The notes below the pieces were generated by a model, which saw nothing but the letters and a program-made list of their open reading frames with translations, made no database searches and was not told the DNA's origin. Below, one piece after another: positions 6,550 through 16,455 of a stretch of 31,345 nucleotides of DNA. The DNA comes from a virus. The translations under genes and the position numbers were made by a program. The stretch is taken from positions 1-31,345 of IMG/VR virus record IMGVR_UViG_3300009425_000056, one strand, 5' to 3'. Numbering within the stretch: the first letter of the stretch is position 1; every line of letters starts with the position of its first letter.

Positions 6550-8271
6550 TTAGAATTCTATAATCAATTTAACATCTTCAATCTGGTCTGCAGCTCGTGT
6601 AACTGGGGAACGATTTTCAACATAAATAATGTCTCCTGAAAATCTTGATAAATCCCCACCTGTGGCAGAACCATTTCCATTTGCAGTAGCTGATGCTCCA
6701 GAACCTCCGGCGCCTCCAGTATTAGCAGCGATAACTTCTGTATTTGTGAAGTATCCAAAAAGTCCATTATAACCAGCCGTTATTGAAGTCCCACTTGGAA
6801 TTATATCTGTTAAACGTAATGTATTATTACCAGTAAAGTCAACTACTCTTCCTGAAGCTCCAGAGGCTGCACCAGTTACTAATTCATCAGCAGCATATTG
6901 AGTTCCGTTCCAACTATTAAGAACAACAGTAGTTGCTTGGTCTATTACTGCACTAGTTGCAATATCTCCGTTTGCAAATTTTGGTTGTGCAACAAGTCCT
7001 ACCTTACGAAAATCATTATTTGTTGTGAAATTATTTGACTCTGAATACTCAAGACGAGCATTTGTGAGAACAAAGAATCCACCAAGTTCTTTAACAGCAT
7101 CTGAACCATGTCCACCAGCTGGGCCAACGACAGGAGTTAGAGTTGCTGTAGTTGGATTATAACTATTAGATTGAGACAGGTTTGCATGAAGTGTAATTAC
7201 AGCATTGGAATAATTATTTCCTCCTGCAAGCATTGTTACAGCATTGACAGCACCAGAACTATTAACGGTTGCCTTTGCATTTGCACCCTGACCATCACCA
7301 GAAATAACAACCTTAGGGCCAATTGAATATGTATCACCTGAGCCTGGAGCTGTTATAGCCGGAGAAAATGTAATCACTTTTGTAGATTGATTATAGTCAG
7401 TAATGGTTGAACCCAATCCCGAAGCATCGCCACTTGTAAAGTAAATATCACAATTCACAATACAATCAACTAGAGCAAGAGGATTACTACCAAGACCAGC
7501 ACCTGAAATAGTTGCAGATGTTGTATTTGGTGAACCGGCGAGAGTTCCAGTTTCACCAAGATATTGTGCTCCTCTAGTTGTCAAGTGTACTACTTCAATC
7601 GCTCCATTACCTGATGCAGCAGTATTTACCTCAACATCATATTGATTTTGGCCAGGAGAATTATCGTATGTATTTGCAAGATATCCATTAGACCGTCTTA
7701 CCGTATCAACTGGAATATAATTCGGTGTAACAAATTTGAGTGCATCTGCAGCAGAAATTTGATACATAAACTTCCATTTATATCCATCTGAGGTTGAAAC
7801 AATACTGGTTCCAGTTCCAGTTGGTTTAACTATAGAAGTTGTACCCACAACACCCGAAGAATTAGTATCATTATTTGCTAAACACTTATAAACATTATAT
7901 TCTGCAGTCATGACATAAAAATCTTGACTATGAAGTGTCGCTGTGGAATGAGAATATGCAAAGTAGCTCGTATTATTTGTCCAATTTTTTCTTGCTATAA
8001 CATGAGATACATCTGAAGAAGTGACCTTCTTTGCAGCAATCATATCACGCCAATTGTCATAATGAGTATTAGCTACTGAGTCTGTTGGTGTGGGTGGTGT
8101 GTTATCATCAGTCCAAGCTGATGGTCTACCTATAAAAAGGTACATATTACTATTGAGGAGCCCACTTGAGTCTGTAACTGCTGTTCCAGAAGTGAAGGAC
8201 ACCTCATCGAACGCCTCAACAAATTGTTTTGCGTTATGAATCCTAAATTTATTAGTTACTAAAGCAGGCAT
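6550..8271 (-). CDS. 8: Baseplate wedge protein gp8
   Basis: This 573-aa wedge subunit joins the baseplate arm to its periphery. The N-terminus (MPALVTNKFRIHNAKQF, then a TxYDNWRDMIAAKK segment and DGYKWKFMYQ near 165) is typical of gp8 in marine T4-like phages. ATG 8271 is chosen over the in-frame TTG at 8286 because GGAGGA lies 7 nt before the ATG and overlaps that TTG. T4 gp8 is 334 aa. The extra length here is mainly residues about 200-480, rich in Gly/Asn/Thr with GxNY or GxGY turns like those of the upstream 2086-aa protein. The C-terminus (IIYVENRSPVTRAADQIEDVKLIIEF) is a compact ending that I associate with gp8. The gene lies between the gp7-position gene and the DUF4815 gene. Assignment is by sequence resemblance and gene order. 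Confidence 0.85.
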   Translation of the reverse strand: MPALVTNKFRIHNAKQFVEAFDEVSFTSGTAVTDSSGLLNSNMYLFIGRPSAWTDDNTPPTPTDSVANTHYDNWRDMIAAKKVTSSDVSHVIARKNWTNNTSYFAYSHSTATLHSQDFYVMTAEYNVYKCLANNDTNSSGVVGTTSIVKPTGTGTSIVSTSDGYKWKFMYQISAADALKFVTPNYIPVDTVRRSNGYLANTYDNSPGQNQYDVEVNTAASGNGAIEVVHLTTRGAQYLGETGTLAGSPNTTSATISGAGLGSNPLALVDCIVNCDIYFTSGDASGLGSTITDYNQSTKVITFSPAITAPGSGDTYSIGPKVVISGDGQGANAKATVNSSGAVNAVTMLAGGNNYSNAVITLHANLSQSNSYNPTTATLTPVVGPAGGHGSDAVKELGGFFVLTNARLEYSESNNFTTNNDFRKVGLVAQPKFANGDIATSAVIDQATTVVLNSWNGTQYAADELVTGAASGASGRVVDFTGNNTLRLTDIIPSGTSITAGYNGLFGYFTNTEVIAANTGGAGGSGASATANGNGSATGGDLSRFSGDIIYVENRSPVTRAADQIEDVKLIIEF

Positions 8272-8308
8272 TTTAAAATCCTCCAAAGGTTATGATTTGT
8301 TATTCTTT

Positions 8309-8318
8309 TATATTTAGT
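8309..8318 (-). promoter_or_regulatory. Weak late-promoter-like motif before gp8
   Basis: The minus strand reads ACTAAATATA directly after the stop of the 2086-aa gene and 37 nt before the gp8 ATG, a distance close to that of the exact octamer before gp48 (34 nt). It keeps the TAAATA core of the T4 late octamer (6 of 8 bases). The 46-nt gap is the widest in this part of the operon. Such words are common in AT-rich DNA, so support is limited. Confidence 0.3.
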
Positions 8319-11300
8319 CAAGAAGTAACTCTTGAATTTACAGATTCCAAGTGATTCACTTTGAATGAAGCATCTGTAAATAGACTTGTTTCTTGATTTA
8401 ATTTCATGAAAGTGTTATTAGCAATACTATCAACCCTATATTTTTCTGTGTCAAGGTTGAGTACTTTATAATTATGATGTAAGTCTTCAAGAACCATTGC
8501 TGTATGTTCTTCAAATGTTAAATAAGTAGAATCATCTTCAAGTACAATTGCATTCGGGTCTTGAGTTACTTCACCATCTTCAAAGAGAATTAAAGTTCCA
8601 TCCTCGTTTACTATGTCATTGCCTAATCTTTCTCCGAGTTCTTCAGGAGTAATTTGGCCGGCAAGTCCACCAGCTGTACTGGTAAACCCATTAATCACAA
8701 AGAAATTTCCTCTTCCAATATTATTACAGTCCGTTGTACCTAATTCAACTTTCATAAATCTATCAGAATTAAGAGTACTGGCTTGAGTATATACACCATA
8801 TTCAAGTTTATAATTTTTAGCTAGAGAATCTGAAAAATTTCTCTTTGTCTTATCTCCATCTTCATTTAATACATGATAACCATCTTCAAGTGCTATGTTT
8901 CCAAAATCTACTTCAACTAAAGAATGATCTGTTACCGATGAAATGGTAGCAGTGTCTCCATCATATTCAGAATTTGAAATATAAGTAAATTTTCCATTAT
9001 ACTCTATACCATATGGAAAACGAAAATCTCCAATAAGTTCAATCTGACATAATGAATCTGATGCACTATTATTAACTTCAATCTGTCCACTTGAAAAGGT
9101 TTCCATATAAGATTCTTCATTGAGAATAAAGATAGCATTTGATAAGTCATCACCGCTGGTTTCGTCTATTAATCTATCTCCATCTTCAAAGAGAAAAACA
9201 GTTCCAAGTCCAGTAGGTGTTCGTTCTTCAAGAAGTATACTACTTCCACCTGTGCCGCCACTATCATCTTCAAGAGCTATATTCGCGACCAAGTTTTCAA
9301 TTCGTAAATTATCATTTGTAAAATTCTCAATTGTACTTGCACTACTTTGTTCTGTACCATAATTACCAGTTTGATGTTCCAATACCAAAGTATCTGTTCC
9401 ATTTTCGTGAATAAGAGTAAGTGCAGAACCAGCAGTACCTTCTTCTATTAACATTTTGAAATCTTCTTCAAGAGCTACAACTTCTTCATCTAGAACAAAA
9501 TCTAAAAAGTCTGTATATACGAGTCTTCTGTTAGAATTAAAGGCCTCATTCTCACTTTCAAGACCAAGATTACCATCCCCTGTTGCAGTTTCAAGTACAA
9601 TAGGAACAAATACTCTATCACCCCCTTCAATCAAAATTAAATCTTTATCATCTGTATGGCTTTCTAATGTAATAAAAGTAGCATCTTGTATAGTCTTATT
9701 TTCGTCTGAGTAAGTTTCAAGAACTATTGGTGCACTAAAATCTGAATTGAATTGGGTATTAAGTCCTGTTATACTTGCACGCCTATCATAAACTTCTGAA
9801 ACAAAAGCCCTTTCCAAAACTGAAGTTGTACTTATTGGATTTTCATGGCCAAAGTTATTATTTGATATTCCACCCTGTTCAAGAATATATTCATCTCCTG
9901 CTTCTGACAAAAATGTAGCTTCTTCTGCAACTGATTCTTCTATAAACCGAGCTCCAGCCTCTGAAAGAAGTTCAAATATTTCACCCATTGTAACATTGAC
10001 ATTACCCTCTGCCCTGACATCAAAGCTTGAAGACCTTCCAGTTCCATACGGATCTTCTAGATTACTTCTAAGAATTGCAGATGCACTAGAATAAAGAGGA
10101 GTTTCAAATGTAAATCTATTACCATCTTCTGCATACCAAGTTACATCTTCATTTGGTGTTCCGACTACAAATGGAACAGCTTCAGTATCTTCATCATAAG
10201 CTATTGGATTGATTTGTATTTCATGAAGTGAAATAACTTCATCTTCCATTGAATTTTCCATTGCCATATACAATGGGAACATACCTTCTGTTCTCTCAAG
10301 AAGTAGATACTCATCATCTTCAAGTTTCAATTGACTTCCATACCCCATGTCAATATGAACAGCTCCACTTTCGGTTTCTGGAAATTGAATCATTGGTAAA
10401 ATAGATCCAGAAGCCGACATTTTGTCTGTGATTATAAATCTGGTATCAAGTTCCAACATTTCATCATGAATTTCAAGCGTCATTCTAAGAGGCTCTAAAT
10501 CTGTTCGTTGTTCTTCTACATAAAGGAATCCTCCAGAATCATCTTCCAGTAAGAAATATTCTTCCGCGTCTGTTCCTTCTTGTTCTAGATAATACTCATC
10601 AATATTCTCTTCCATTTGAATATAGAATATATCAAACGCATCTTCACTAATAATTTGATTTGAATCATCTATTGGTTCATGAAGAAGATAATTTTTAGCT
10701 TGAAGGCCAGAAGAAGCACTATCCTCGTATGCAATTCCAACTCCCTCTTCATCATCGTATGTAATGGATTCCATAATGATACGATCACCTGTATCGCCTT
10801 CCAATAACATAACATTAAACGTATCAAATGAAGCATCTTCTATTTCAAGGTTAGAATCATCTTCTTGAATGAGAGAATCATAATATTCTTCAAATTGTAT
10901 ATTTGAAACTCCGTCTTCTTCTAAAGCTAAAGTTCCTCCTGTGTCTGTTTCAAATCCCATAATATCAGAAGCACCCTCAAGTGCAATACCTGCATTTTCA
11001 TGTTCTAGAATTAAGTCATAATCAATAAGAGGAAATTGTATTTTAAGGTTGTGAGCTATAGAAGGAGCAATAGAAGCTTGAAATAATGAGGTTTGAATAC
11101 CAATTTGAACATTTGAAGAAGCTGTATCTAAATTTGAGAATGTTATTTTGTGATGCATGTAATTTGGAACACCAAGTGTCCCTGCTACTTGTGCAGTGTT
11201 TGCAACAGTATCATTAATGGTATTTGCACCATTATTAAATAATTTGTTGGCTGCATTAGCATACATCACCACCTCACCGAACATTTTAAGTCCAGATGGA

Positions 11301-14300
11301 TGAACAAGATTTGTTATCTTTTCACGATATACTTCTGTATTAATATCGGTTTTAATAACGTATGAGAAATCTTGATAATAAAAATTATCCTGCATCTTGT
11401 TTTGACCACTCAACAATCCTTGAGCACCATCAAAAAATCCATCATAATCAGCAACAGCACCAAGAGATGATACTAATGATGCATTACCATCACCCACTGC
11501 AGTAGCATCAATAGTTGGAGCCGAAGTATATCCTGCACCAAAATTATAAATTGTTACAGATTGAATACCACCGATTGCAATAGCTGCGATTGAAATGAAT
11601 GCACTGTTACCCGCAATACCAGTATTTGCAAATACAACATTGGATGTATCTATTCCAACTTCAGATATAATAAATCCATTACTTGTAGAAGTACTGTAAG
11701 CAGGACTTGAAGTTCCTACTCCATTTTCAAAAGATAATTGTGTAGTAGTAGAATCTTCAGTAAGTAGTCTTTCGTATGCAGTATTTGCGGTGACTATTCT
11801 TCTAATTGTTAAATCTGATTCGCTATCATCAGTTGGGTCACTTGCAAGGGTTACAGTATATGTTGAAGAGTTTGATACTGTTGCAACAGTATGATTATTA
11901 TTATAAACAGCTGCGTCAGTTCCAGAAGTAGAACCAGTAACTACAATTCTTTGTCCTGCACCATAACCATGAGCTACTTGAGTAAATGTTGCTGTAGTAC
12001 CTGAAGTTGCAATGTCGGCTTGACCAAAATCTCCTACACCGATTGGTTGTTCACCTGCATTATTTTGATAAGCAGTCAGAATATCATCAGCAACGAAAGC
12101 TGTTGCAGATGTCATTTGTACTCTAAGTACTGTATTTCCTGTAGCTACTAATGCAGTATTAGAGGAAATGGGCCCGAGAACTACACCAGTTGCAGAATTT
12201 GAAGCATTCTTAACTATTGTATTACTTGTAAATTGATTTGCTATACTATTAGCAAGAGTTATAAAAACTGAATTAGCACCAGTTTTTTCTAAAGAACTTC
12301 CATAAGAAATAATTGTACTATTAGCAACTGTCACTACTGGAATTGATGAATAACCTTGACCTGAAGAAAGAACTTGTATAGAACGAATACCACCAATTGA
12401 AGCCTCTGTAACTGTTCCTGTAAGAGCACCATGATATGCCGTTCCTGTATTTGCAGTTGGAGCTCCATTTATAGTTAAACTACCACCTGTTGTTCTTATT
12501 GTGGCATTATGTCCATTAGCTGACTTAGCAGTTCCGTCTAAAGCTTTAGTTAAATCGTATATAGTTATAGCATCATTATTAATAAAATTATTAAGTGTAG
12601 CTGCAGCGGAATGGGTTGCAGTATAAACAATAGAACCTAAAGCATAAGTAATTGTACCAGTAGTAGCAGGACTTGATGCAGTGGTAGCAATTACTGTACC
12701 AAATTTAGATGTGCTTGGAGAATAATTTGAAACACTTTCAGTACCTCCAAACTTAGCAATAAAGTCACCAGCTTTTGGAATAGAACCAGAACGTCCATCA
12801 AATGGTACTGTAAAAGTTGTAGTAGAATTTGAATAGATGTGAGTATTAGCATCAGCTGCGGTTAATGGTGTAGAATATGCAGATGCACTAATAGTATCAT
12901 CTTTATTTGTATTAATAACCAGAGTATCTACAGACACATTTGCAGTTGGAGTAATAGATGCAATTCTAGCAGAACCACCCGAACCACCAGTTCCCTCATT
13001 AGCAAACACAACCGTATCACCAACCGAATACCCATCGCCAGGATCAAATATATCTACAGCACTAATTGTAGCATCAGATACCGATGCTACTTTTGCTGCA
13101 GCTTCAGCACCACCCCCACCAGTAATAGCAAGTTCATCACCGACTGAATAATTTGATCCACCACCTGAAATTTCTATTGATGCAAGAATACCAGCTACAT
13201 TTGCTTGACCATAATTTCCACTACTATCAGCGGTGGTTGTAGTAATTGTATCATTCGCTTGAAAGGTAGTAAAATTTATTAAAGTATCGGGATCGGCTAC
13301 AGCACCCACATCATCAACATTAGAAATAAAAAGTTCTGAAATTGTTGTAGCACCAACTTGATAAGTTTGAGTTCTTTCAACTAGTGCTGTGACATTTGAA
13401 TATGAACCTCTAACAACCTTTCCTTCAAGAACAGAAAAATTGTTAGACTGCAGTTGGTCTATTTTTAGAGTTTTATTTTTAGTCCATCTTCCATCAGACA
13501 ACCTAAGCATGTCTGTACTGGGATAATAAAACGTAACATCTTCTTTTCCGAATAATAGTCTAAAAATAAATTGGAAGGATGCTTCGTTACCCTTTGCTCG
13601 GTAAAAGTCTTTAATGTTTTTGAGTAGTCCTGCCTTGTCTCCAAGAGAACCTTTAGGAACTCCAGCTAAAAACTCTTTCCTGAAAAGTTCAACAAATCCA
13701 AGAGGAGCCTTATCTATGTCTTGGAAAGATTTTACATTTCTAGAAGCATTTAACGCCTGTCGTGAATACAAAGTAACATTAGCAGAAGCTCTAGAAGTGT
13801 CACCAACAATCCTTTCTCCAATTCGGAAATTTCCATTGTTAGTTTCTTCAACATAAACTTGAGTATTAGCATACTTACCTCTTACAACACCAGTTGCACC
13901 AGATTCATCACCTTCAATAGTTTCACCACTTAGAAATTGGCTGCCTTGTCTATTAGGATTTTCAAAGTCAATATAATCTGTAGAAGAATTTGCAGATTCA
14001 GTATTTCCATTTTCTTGAGAAATAAATGGTGTCGTATTTGCAATAGAAACCACACCACCCATTCCAGAGTGAGTATTACAATAATAGTATAAGGAAGTAT
14101 TAGCTAAAGAAGTACTGATATAAACTGAAGTTTGTGCTCCAGCTTCGCCGGGCGTACCAAAAGTTATAACATTGATTCCATTTGAATATTCTTCACCGCC
14201 AGGGGTATGTCTTCCATTTGGACTTTGAGATATTCTAAGAGGATGTCCAGCATTGGTAGATGCACTTTGGTTGAATATGTAAGTAGTTCCAGAAGATACA

Positions 14301-14578
14301 TTTAAAGTTGGGGAAGCCGCACCTGTAATGAAAAATTTATTTGCATTATTACTATAAGCATTATCTCCTGTTGCAACGGTTACTGTATACGTTACATCGT
14401 TTACTTCTTGTATGGGTTTATCTTCATTAAGGTCAAGATCATTGAACGTGAGAAGATTCAATTCCAAGAATTCATAATACTTCTCTACAAATTTAGAGAA
14501 ACTACCATGATTGTGCTGTACAAAATTTGGTAATTGTTGCTCTATTTGTGTGTATAGAGCTCCGCCATCTGATCTCAT
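8318..14578 (-). CDS. Giant baseplate wedge protein in the gp7 position, with cupredoxin-like insert and acidic repeats
   Basis: This 2086-aa protein lies between gp6 and gp8, where T4 has gp7 (1032 aa). Its ATG overlaps the gp6 stop (TAATG). Layout: residues 1-60 are helical (LPNFVQHNHGSFSKFVEKYY). Residues 63-180 form an inserted cupredoxin-like domain. Residues about 280-365 are the best conserved part (KNIKDFYRAKGNEASFQF, then LFGKEDVTFYYPSTDMLR), which I recognise from large structural proteins of marine T4-like phages. Residues about 400-1150 hold beta repeats with GxGY turns (GGGSNYSVGDEL, GDGYSVGDTV, GQGYSSIPVV, GAGYTSAPTI). From about 1186 to the end come short acidic repeats (LALEEDG, IVLEDDS, LILFEDG). 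A wedge role is inferred from position and from the conserved segment; equivalence to T4 gp7 is not shown. All tracts are in one uninterrupted frame. Confidence 0.8.
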   Translation of the reverse strand: MRSDGGALYTQIEQQLPNFVQHNHGSFSKFVEKYYEFLELNLLTFNDLDLNEDKPIQEVNDVTYTVTVATGDNAYSNNANKFFITGAASPTLNVSSGTTYIFNQSASTNAGHPLRISQSPNGRHTPGGEEYSNGINVITFGTPGEAGAQTSVYISTSLANTSLYYYCNTHSGMGGVVSIANTTPFISQENGNTESANSSTDYIDFENPNRQGSQFLSGETIEGDESGATGVVRGKYANTQVYVEETNNGNFRIGERIVGDTSRASANVTLYSRQALNASRNVKSFQDIDKAPLGFVELFRKEFLAGVPKGSLGDKAGLLKNIKDFYRAKGNEASFQFIFRLLFGKEDVTFYYPSTDMLRLSDGRWTKNKTLKIDQLQSNNFSVLEGKVVRGSYSNVTALVERTQTYQVGATTISELFISNVDDVGAVADPDTLINFTTFQANDTITTTTADSSGNYGQANVAGILASIEISGGGSNYSVGDELAITGGGGAEAAAKVASVSDATISAVDIFDPGDGYSVGDTVVFANEGTGGSGGSARIASITPTANVSVDTLVINTNKDDTISASAYSTPLTAADANTHIYSNSTTTFTVPFDGRSGSIPKAGDFIAKFGGTESVSNYSPSTSKFGTVIATTASSPATTGTITYALGSIVYTATHSAAATLNNFINNDAITIYDLTKALDGTAKSANGHNATIRTTGGSLTINGAPTANTGTAYHGALTGTVTEASIGGIRSIQVLSSGQGYSSIPVVTVANSTIISYGSSLEKTGANSVFITLANSIANQFTSNTIVKNASNSATGVVLGPISSNTALVATGNTVLRVQMTSATAFVADDILTAYQNNAGEQPIGVGDFGQADIATSGTTATFTQVAHGYGAGQRIVVTGSTSGTDAAVYNNNHTVATVSNSSTYTVTLASDPTDDSESDLTIRRIVTANTAYERLLTEDSTTTQLSFENGVGTSSPAYSTSTSNGFIISEVGIDTSNVVFANTGIAGNSAFISIAAIAIGGIQSVTIYNFGAGYTSAPTIDATAVGDGNASLVSSLGAVADYDGFFDGAQGLLSGQNKMQDNFYYQDFSYVIKTDINTEVYREKITNLVHPSGLKMFGEVVMYANAANKLFNNGANTINDTVANTAQVAGTLGVPNYMHHKITFSNLDTASSNVQIGIQTSLFQASIAPSIAHNLKIQFPLIDYDLILEHENAGIALEGASDIMGFETDTGGTLALEEDGVSNIQFEEYYDSLIQEDDSNLEIEDASFDTFNVMLLEGDTGDRIIMESITYDDEEGVGIAYEDSASSGLQAKNYLLHEPIDDSNQIISEDAFDIFYIQMEENIDEYYLEQEGTDAEEYFLLEDDSGGFLYVEEQRTDLEPLRMTLEIHDEMLELDTRFIITDKMSASGSILPMIQFPETESGAVHIDMGYGSQLKLEDDEYLLLERTEGMFPLYMAMENSMEDEVISLHEIQINPIAYDEDTEAVPFVVGTPNEDVTWYAEDGNRFTFETPLYSSASAILRSNLEDPYGTGRSSSFDVRAEGNVNVTMGEIFELLSEAGARFIEESVAEEATFLSEAGDEYILEQGGISNNNFGHENPISTTSVLERAFVSEVYDRRASITGLNTQFNSDFSAPIVLETYSDENKTIQDATFITLESHTDDKDLILIEGGDRVFVPIVLETATGDGNLGLESENEAFNSNRRLVYTDFLDFVLDEEVVALEEDFKMLIEEGTAGSALTLIHENGTDTLVLEHQTGNYGTEQSSASTIENFTNDNLRIENLVANIALEDDSGGTGGSSILLEERTPTGLGTVFLFEDGDRLIDETSGDDLSNAIFILNEESYMETFSSGQIEVNNSASDSLCQIELIGDFRFPYGIEYNGKFTYISNSEYDGDTATISSVTDHSLVEVDFGNIALEDGYHVLNEDGDKTKRNFSDSLAKNYKLEYGVYTQASTLNSDRFMKVELGTTDCNNIGRGNFFVINGFTSTAGGLAGQITPEELGERLGNDIVNEDGTLILFEDGEVTQDPNAIVLEDDSTYLTFEEHTAMVLEDLHHNYKVLNLDTEKYRVDSIANNTFMKLNQETSLFTDASFKVNHLESVNSRVTS
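8400..11025 (-). repeat. Region coding degenerate acidic LEDG/LEED-type repeats
   Basis: The codons for residues about 1186-2060 of the 2086-aa protein repeat the theme of two or three hydrophobic residues, then LE or FE, then an acidic turn (D/E-D/E-S/G). Examples are GTLALEEDGVSNIQFEE, SILLEERT, TVFLFEDGDRLIDE, LILFEDGEV and AIVLEDDSTYLTFEE. In the DNA this shows on the plus strand as recurring TCTTCAAG and ATCTTC words. The repeats are degenerate, with spacing of roughly 10-25 residues. Confidence 0.7.
14039..14392 (-). other. Cupredoxin-like (type-1 copper) domain inside the 2086-aa wedge protein
   Basis: Residues 63-180 read as a Greek-key beta domain: an initial strand pair (YTVTVATGDN), a strand before SSGTTYIFNQS, then GHPLRIS, GTPGEAG, and finally LYYYCNTHSGMGGVV. 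H112, C167, H170 and M173 fall where cupredoxins keep their copper ligands, and C-x2-H-x2-M is the amicyanin-like spacing. It interrupts a helical N-terminus, so it looks like an inserted module. Similar modules with a YYYC..H.GMGG ending occur in other marine phage structural proteins as I remember them. Copper binding is inferred from the motif only. Confidence 0.65.
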
Positions 14579-16455
14579 TAGTAACTACTGCTTGAAGTTG
14601 AAGTTGTTGCTGTGGTTGTTGTCGAGGTTGTCGTATTTGATATTCCAGTAGCACCGCCCGACCCGCCGGTATCATACATAGAAATTGTAATATCATTATT
14701 TGAAATAAGTAATATCTGTTCCCTTAATGGTGAAACATCATTTGATTCTAAAGAAACAGTAACTTCAACATTTGCTGTGCCATCTGCAATTACAATCGGT
14801 TTGAATGATGACAGTGCCACATTTCCACTTGCATAAGTAACAGTTCCTACATTATTTGCTACGACAATTGTACTTGCACCTGAAGTTCTATAAACTTGAA
14901 GGACTCCATTAGCATCTTGTAAAGAGCAATCAGTTCTTAAAATATCATCATCGTCATAATGAGTAAATGATGTACTAGATATTTGGGACACTCCATTTAC
15001 TGTTGGAATTTCATTTGAAAATTTAAGAGTATATGAAGAAGCCACATTTAATGTAGGAGCAAAAGTCCTTCTAAGTTGAATCGTAGTTAAACTACTCTCA
15101 ATAGCCGATTCTGTTTCATCAATCTTTTTTATTAGAGGTGAATATCTAAACTGGTCTGCAAACAGGCCTAATTCAGATTGACCATATTGATATATGGTAT
15201 TTGTTAATAAAGATTGAATACTTCCTGCTGTCAATGTAGTATTTGTAGAATCATATTTAACTTTAGTATCTATTGTGACATATAAATAATCTGGATCTGT
15301 AATTTCTGGAGAAACCGACACCACATTTCTATTTGCCAAAACTGTATCTTTAATATAATTCTTAGTTGAAGTAGATAATGTAAGTCCTGAAGCTGGTTTA
15401 ATAGCCAAATAAACTTTACCATATACGGGCGGATCGTTTGTTTCTCCACCCCACACTACAACAGATTCTGCTGCTGGATAGTCTCGTTCAAGTATTCTCT
15501 TATAGTCATTAATAGTCACTGCTCTATTTTGAGCTTGATAACTTCGTGGAGCATTAAATTTAATTTTTTTAATAGAATCTCGTTCTGACCCACCAGAAGC
15601 CGAACCCAATGTACTAACACTAACGGTTGAATAGCCCCCCACAGAACTAACAGGAGCAAAAGTTGCTGCTCCATTTGGATTATCTGCATCTGCAATCAAT
15701 GAAGATAACAATACTATATTTCCAGTTACAGGTTTTCTACCTATAACATCATCTCCAAATATACATTCATATTTTCCATCTTCAGCCTCTTCAAGGAAAT
15801 ATACATTAGAAGTAGCATTAATAGTTGTTGTGTCATTCGCAATTGCATAAGTAAATGTTGTTGAATCTTCTGCAGAGGTTTGAATCTTAACCGTGAGGGT
15901 ACTTGTATCTGTATTTGCGTTTGGTAATACAAATTTTTGGTCTGGATTTTTAGTATTTGCTGTATACCTGTGAGTTAATGGAATACCTTGATTTAATTCT
16001 ACGTTTGCTGTAGTATAAACTCCATTTGCATTTACATTAAGAGTGACAGAATTTGAAGTAGCAAAAAGATATGAAATACCATTTACAGAAGAAGAAAATT
16101 GTGTATCCTTTTCAATCACTATAGTAGCTGGGGTGTCTGTTGGTGTGATTGTAAGGTCAACGTAAGCTTTAGACCCTCGCACAGATTGTGGAGTATACCC
16201 TAAATGTTTAGCTCGTGATACAACAGAATTTCTAATTGATGCAGTGTCTAGAAACATTTCATTAACAATCATATTCAAATAGAACGCGTTGTAATGAGTA
16301 TTGTAGGCTAAAAGGTCTAGAAGGACAGACAGGGCGGATGCATCAAAATCATAATCAGCAAATTCGTTCTGATCCCCCATAAAATTTTTGAGGTTTGATT
16401 TTATTGCATCAAAGTCTAATTCTGCGACTTTTAATTTGGATGAAGTTGTGGCCAT
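14578..16455 (-). CDS. 6: Baseplate wedge protein gp6 (baseplate J-like)
   Basis: This 625-aa protein matches gp6, the wedge subunit that forms the continuous ring around the hub in T4 (660 aa) and carries the baseplate-J fold. The N-terminal segment (residues about 10-110: LDFDAIKSNLKNFM, DYDFDASALSVLLDLLAYNT, then HYNAFYLNMIVNEMFLDTA) is the strongly conserved gp6 signature. The middle (about 320-400: ITDPDYLYVTIDTKVKYD) fits the J-type domain. The last 25 residues or so are almost only Ser and Thr with a single Tyr. The gene follows gp25 after 3 nt, as in many contractile systems, and its stop overlaps the next start by one base. Confidence 0.93.
   Translation of the reverse strand: MATTSSKLKVAELDFDAIKSNLKNFMGDQNEFADYDFDASALSVLLDLLAYNTHYNAFYLNMIVNEMFLDTASIRNSVVSRAKHLGYTPQSVRGSKAYVDLTITPTDTPATIVIEKDTQFSSSVNGISYLFATSNSVTLNVNANGVYTTANVELNQGIPLTHRYTANTKNPDQKFVLPNANTDTSTLTVKIQTSAEDSTTFTYAIANDTTTINATSNVYFLEEAEDGKYECIFGDDVIGRKPVTGNIVLLSSLIADADNPNGAATFAPVSSVGGYSTVSVSTLGSASGGSERDSIKKIKFNAPRSYQAQNRAVTINDYKRILERDYPAAESVVVWGGETNDPPVYGKVYLAIKPASGLTLSTSTKNYIKDTVLANRNVVSVSPEITDPDYLYVTIDTKVKYDSTNTTLTAGSIQSLLTNTIYQYGQSELGLFADQFRYSPLIKKIDETESAIESSLTTIQLRRTFAPTLNVASSYTLKFSNEIPTVNGVSQISSTSFTHYDDDDILRTDCSLQDANGVLQVYRTSGASTIVVANNVGTVTYASGNVALSSFKPIVIADGTANVEVTVSLESNDVSPLREQILLISNNDITISMYDTGGSGGATGISNTTTSTTTTATTSTSSSSY

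Follow-up and report, generated by a model that had tools for sequence, protein, structure and literature searches.

The stretch of DNA analysed here (the window) comprises 31,345 nucleotides, positions 1 to 31,345 of the IMG/VR virus record IMGVR_UViG_3300009425_000056, and carries three consecutive baseplate wedge genes on its minus strand (Table 1). The central one encodes a 2086-aa protein that matched Pfam PF23786 (Baseplate_wedge) at 1.4e-7, with 31.7 bits against a curated cut-off of 27, and PHROG 17744 (baseplate wedge subunit) at 1e-38. Gene order alone suggests that this protein occupies the position of T4 gp7, between a gp6-like and a gp8-like gene; a phmmer comparison with a cyanophage protein annotated as gp7 (L019) gave no match at all. 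About 26 short acidic motifs of the LED/LEE type (e.g. ILFEDG, IALEDD) are distributed across the C-terminal 900 residues of the protein (residues ~1200–2086, window positions 8318–10981).

Table 1. Features of the baseplate wedge locus, with positions in the window.
Feature	Positions	Strand	Basis or remark
gp8-like baseplate wedge gene, downstream neighbour	6550..8286	(-)	Pfam PF09215, 3.1e-19
Baseplate wedge protein with the domain, 2086 aa	8318..14578	(-)	ORF; Pfam PF23786, PHROG 17744
Second small module, residues ~187-265	13784..14020	(-)	Same inserted stretch; missing from domain-free homologues
Predicted cupredoxin-like domain, residues 62-180	14039..14395	(-)	AlphaFold2 model, Foldseek, alignments
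M173, candidate axial ligand	14060..14062	(-)	Invariant in family alignments and orthologues
H170, candidate ligand	14069..14071	(-)	Invariant; CAT/CAC
C167, candidate ligand (YYYC)	14078..14080	(-)	Invariant; TGT/TGC
H112, first candidate copper ligand (HP motif)	14243..14245	(-)	Invariant; CAT/CAC synonymous in orthologues
N-terminal helix-type segment, residues 1-60	14399..14578	(-)	Common to homologues without the domain; homologue matches, most of L228-L277
gp6-like baseplate wedge gene, upstream neighbour	14578..16455	(-)	Pfam PF21379, 8.7e-21

The initial annotation had proposed a cupredoxin-like domain at residues 63–180 (positions 14039–14392) with H112, C167, H170 and M173 as a putative copper site, and all of these residues lie where it had placed them. 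An AlphaFold2 model of the domain, built with 38 family sequences (pLDDT 80.9, pTM 0.79), was all-beta with nine strands. When this model was compared with the PDB by Foldseek, all 30 matches at E ≤ 0.001 belonged to the cupredoxin superfamily, with no other fold among them. The three-domain nitrite reductase of Hyphomicrobium and rusticyanin came first, followed by CueO (E 4e-5 to 5e-4), and SufI and factor VIII were also found within the same threshold. The TM-scores of these matches to the query were moderate (0.41–0.55), and the loops are therefore expected to differ from those of solved cupredoxins. As the fold matches were uniformly cupredoxins, a prediction artefact is an unlikely source of the predicted fold, a Greek-key beta-sandwich matching solved cupredoxins.

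At the sequence level, independently of the structural model, a family profile searched against the PDB ranked plastocyanins first, with the four ligands in register and E-values (0.018–0.022) that are marginal on their own; a larger family alignment (A2) produced weaker matches than the E of ~0.02 of the smaller one. The phage family aligned by hhalign to marine cellular cupredoxins, a set including two bridging sequences above the Copper-bind cut-off, at 95.6% and E 1.1e-8. A phage HMM also matched, at 1e-9, bacterial proteins that score above the Copper-bind cut-off of Pfam; this E-value was calculated over a small ORF set, and the training of the HMM included one similar phage domain (MED4-213, L020). 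In a single-cell assembly of a marine Bacteroidetes, two open frames longer than 1100 aa (L284 and L286) have a C-terminal cupredoxin domain that bridges the phage family to Copper-bind. No Pfam or NCBIfam model covers the domain, and Pfam, NCBIfam and single-sequence PDB searches with the window domain found nothing. For PF00127 (Copper-bind) the window domain remained below the cut-off, one of 17 family members gave E 0.019, and a search of the virus record itself returned no match. Together, model, fold matches and profile comparison support the assignment of residues ~62–180 to a predicted cupredoxin-like domain and bear out the fold that had been proposed.

The four candidate ligands have the order and spacing (C-x2-H-x2-M) of the known type-1 copper ligand set, and C167 is one of just three cysteines in the 2086-aa protein. 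The pattern H-x(30-80)-C-x2-H-x2-M occurred in 4 of 20,000 shuffles of this protein, and a chance motif was ruled out by this count together with the invariance of the motif across the family; as judged from the alignments, family homology is the stronger evidence for the motif. All four ligands were invariant in an alignment of 17 sequences with 24–95% identity to the window domain, as were G, T, F, G and Y positions, and in an alignment of 38 members the invariant columns were exactly H, Y, C, H and M.

Ligands were then counted in 262 distinct domains: 207 had all four, 50 had none, five had one, and none had two or three. Four of the five single-ligand domains keep only the Met, and the remaining one is cut off at a contig end. 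The 100% ligand conservation within the 207 complete copies follows from how this group was selected. The surroundings of the ligands in these copies were also regular, with the C-x2-H-x2-M spacing in 206 of 207, two Tyr before the Cys conserved at 98.6 and 99%, and 42–74 residues between the first His and the Cys. The Asn or Ser usual after the first His in small blue copper proteins was not found at that position, which is occupied by Pro in 201 of the complete copies (97%). Since some search baits contained ligand residues, separate counts were made for bait bias. Domains holding ligand-free bait peptides were complete in 18 of 18 and 52 of 52 cases, and never-baited domains in neighbouring proteins gave 56 complete sites and none with two or three ligands. 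Bait bias was rejected as the origin of the ligand counts.

Orthologues of the window protein were collected by a scan with residues outside the domain, and overlapping loci from two scans were counted once. In each of the 12 orthologous contigs that carry the domain the His/Cys/His/Met set is kept, and all codon differences at the ligands are synonymous (CAT/CAC, TGT/TGC). Three orthologues (L225-L227) have long acidic loop insertions of ~60–100 residues inside the domain, with the site intact; the inserted motifs are of the same LED/LEE type as those in the C-terminal part of the window protein. A degenerate copy is thus ruled out for the window protein by the 12 complete contigs. Neither of the two outcomes named beforehand as refuting the proposal, a predicted fold other than a cupredoxin or homologues with the domain but without the ligand set, occurred for this protein. 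The initial annotation had allowed for a degenerate adhesion module, a suggestion that finds no support for this copy: its type-1-like ligand set is intact and conserved both across the family and among orthologues, and the ligand-free branch described below lies in another protein. Around 50 more distant homologues of the 2086-aa protein lack the domain and align to the core only from residue ~266 onward. In most of them the N-terminal segment (LPEFVRxDHPxFVAFxxAYYEYLEQ) runs straight into the core, in agreement with the earlier proposal that the domain interrupts a helix-type N-terminus. On these alignments, what separates the N-terminal segment from the core is an inserted stretch made up of the domain and the module at ~187–265.

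Ligand-free domains were confined to a single position: in 67 ORFs for a gp7-like wedge protein the final domain lacks the ligands, and one or two further domains of each ORF are complete. The wedge protein of L019, which has such a domain, belongs to phrog_708. Because all ligand-free copies belong to one orthologous domain, the all-or-none pattern probably records one loss of the site rather than many. A model of the ligand-free domain was less clear (pLDDT 78) and had weak fold matches (laccases, E 0.04), so that the apparent retention of the fold without the site in this branch is argued mainly from sequence. This domain (L102-L181, residues ~550–820 of the phrog_708-like wedge protein) keeps invariant residues of its own, such as W60, R101 and F118 in the numbering of alignment A3, and constitutes a natural site-loss experiment.

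The persistence of this ligand-free orthologous group in phrog_708-type wedge proteins would be expected if the domain were a generic beta-sandwich module for adhesion or decoration, whose conserved His/Cys/His/Met were inherited and unused for metal, and the location of the domain in relatives next to other modules, such as collagen repeats, points the same way. Such a module is nevertheless quite unlikely, since the best conserved columns after the ligands themselves (the latter fixed by selection of the 207 copies) are the residues around them, no domain among the 262 has an intermediate set of two or three, and the ligand codons of orthologues change synonymously only.

The domain belongs to a widespread family, an extent on which the initial annotation had not remarked. 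By tblastn it was detected in at least 194 of 50,697 phage records; the carriers among the matches listed were Synechococcus, Prochlorococcus, Pelagibacter and Methylophilales phages or unassigned marine and environmental phages, and no others. Two scans of IMG/VR gave at least 599 and at least 592 confirmed viral-contig stretches with the domain. According to PHROG and annotation, the carrier proteins are gp9-like baseplate wedge tail-fibre connectors, gp7-like wedge subunits, tail fibres and virion structural proteins, and the domain is located at C-termini as well as in protein interiors. One cultured system is available, as gp9 of cyanophage S-ShM2 (tail-fibre connector) bears the domain with an intact site. 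A search of the plasmid collection for the domain gave no match. By sequence, the domain has spread through non-homologous tail proteins as a mobile module of the virions of marine phages, and from the kinds of carrier protein we infer that it is exposed at the virion surface.

The domain is furthermore encoded at 34 loci of bacterial and archaeal assemblies (SAR86, marine group II, Prochlorococcus, SAR92 and others). Many of these assemblies were derived from metagenomes or single cells, and viral contigs may be among them. In one SAR92 protein the domain is fused to a phosphatidylethanolamine-binding-protein domain. Two marine group II archaeal assemblies (L199 and L203) encode proteins, of host or viral origin, that combine collagen-type repeats with the domain close to their C-terminus. 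Three Prochlorococcus single-cell or metagenome assemblies (L212, L213 and L214) encode a related protein of 400 aa with a complete ligand set, possibly the product of a host gene.

Taken together, these data are best explained by an exposed module of the cupredoxin family with an intact mononuclear type-1-like site (H112, C167, H170, M173), inserted in the wedge protein at the gp7 position and loaded with copper, a reading to which we assign a probability of roughly 70%. Copper binding by the His2CysMet site is proposed because the ligand set is that of amicyanin. Virion assembly takes place in a reducing, copper-poor cytoplasm; for this reason the domain would fold there in the apo form, and copper is proposed to be taken up once the cell has lysed, either from seawater or at the host envelope. 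The bound metal would then rigidify the C-terminal ligand loop of the exposed domain, and the other loops may help to stabilise the virion or to contact the host surface.

A narrower version of this explanation, compatible with it, is a copper-scavenging or 'Trojan horse' role, in which seawater copper on the virion would be recognised by metal-uptake or surface copper proteins of the host, as a copper counterpart of the proposal made for HxH iron motifs. The exclusively marine origin of the phages among the matches listed and the presence of complete sites in fibre and connector proteins are consistent with it, and an iron precedent has been proposed (PMC11705849). The carrier phages, however, infect very different hosts, and the domain is also located inside a wedge protein, beyond the fibre tips. 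Moreover, we know of no copper receptor in the hosts of these phages, and we consider this role improbable.

Cupredoxin sites accept Zn in vitro, which favours a cupredoxin fold whose conserved site is occupied by a metal other than the proposed copper (Zn, Fe, Ni or Cu(I) only) and acts as a purely structural pin. The site and its conservation do not single out one metal, and T4 gp37 has HxH motifs that bind iron (PMC11705849). Nonetheless, His-Cys-His-Met arranged as C-x2-H-x2-M is the copper arrangement of amicyanin, and the closest matches of known structure, by sequence as by fold, are copper proteins, so that we regard such a structural pin with a different metal as unlikely. Blue copper sites are normally redox centres, and an electron-transfer or redox-sensing cupredoxin could trigger the baseplate by reacting with donors in the periplasm. 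No redox centre that might act as its partner was observed, however, and the domain occupies many unrelated tail positions, both C-terminal and internal, which makes a trigger of this kind highly improbable; long-range electron transfer is unlikely in the setting of a virion.

If copper is bound as in our preferred reading, some of the most abundant marine viruses bear a copper site on the tail, virus particles are tied to marine copper chemistry, and a testable handle is gained on the attachment or the lasting infectivity of these phages. Extended to marine phages at large, this would make their virions copper metalloparticles, whose cupredoxin modules load copper extracellularly and use it in attachment or virion survival, a generalisation that we offer tentatively as a real possibility at somewhat below even odds. 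Copper binding would also give a name to a large unannotated domain, present in structural proteins that by the hundreds are annotated only as 'hypothetical' or 'virion structural protein'. No virion cupredoxin was found in the full-text literature, a search whose coverage excludes most subscription papers and preprints, and a virion-borne copper site appears to be without described precedent in the literature searched. The cupredoxin itself is known; the novelty is its widespread virion context.

Among known systems, plastocyanin and amicyanin (PF00127) share with the phage domain the beta-sandwich and the ligand order, and the C-x2-H-x2-M spacing is that of amicyanin. Asn usually follows the first His in small blue copper proteins and Pro follows the T1 His in multicopper oxidases; the phage domain, with His-Pro, differs from the His-Asn of the former and resembles the latter at this position. 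Small blue copper proteins are also free electron carriers, whereas the phage domain is part of virion proteins. Rusticyanin and the cupredoxin domains of Hyphomicrobium nitrite reductase and CueO are its best fold matches but differ in ligand-loop spacing and size, and the phage domain has no trinuclear site or enzyme partner. In tailed phages, Ig-like decoration domains are mobile beta-sandwich modules inserted in or appended to virion proteins; the phage domain is alike in mobility and architecture, but the Ig-like domains have no metal site, whereas its matches are cupredoxins and its ligands are conserved. Finally, the tail fibres of T4 (gp37) and of alterophages have iron-binding HxH motifs, for which the 'Trojan horse' proposal was made (PMC11705849). 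Metal would be held on phage tail proteins in both cases, at unrelated sites: the HxH site is an octahedral, His-only iron site in a trimeric fibre, whereas the candidate site of the phage cupredoxin (His2CysMet) would be formed by one chain within a beta domain.
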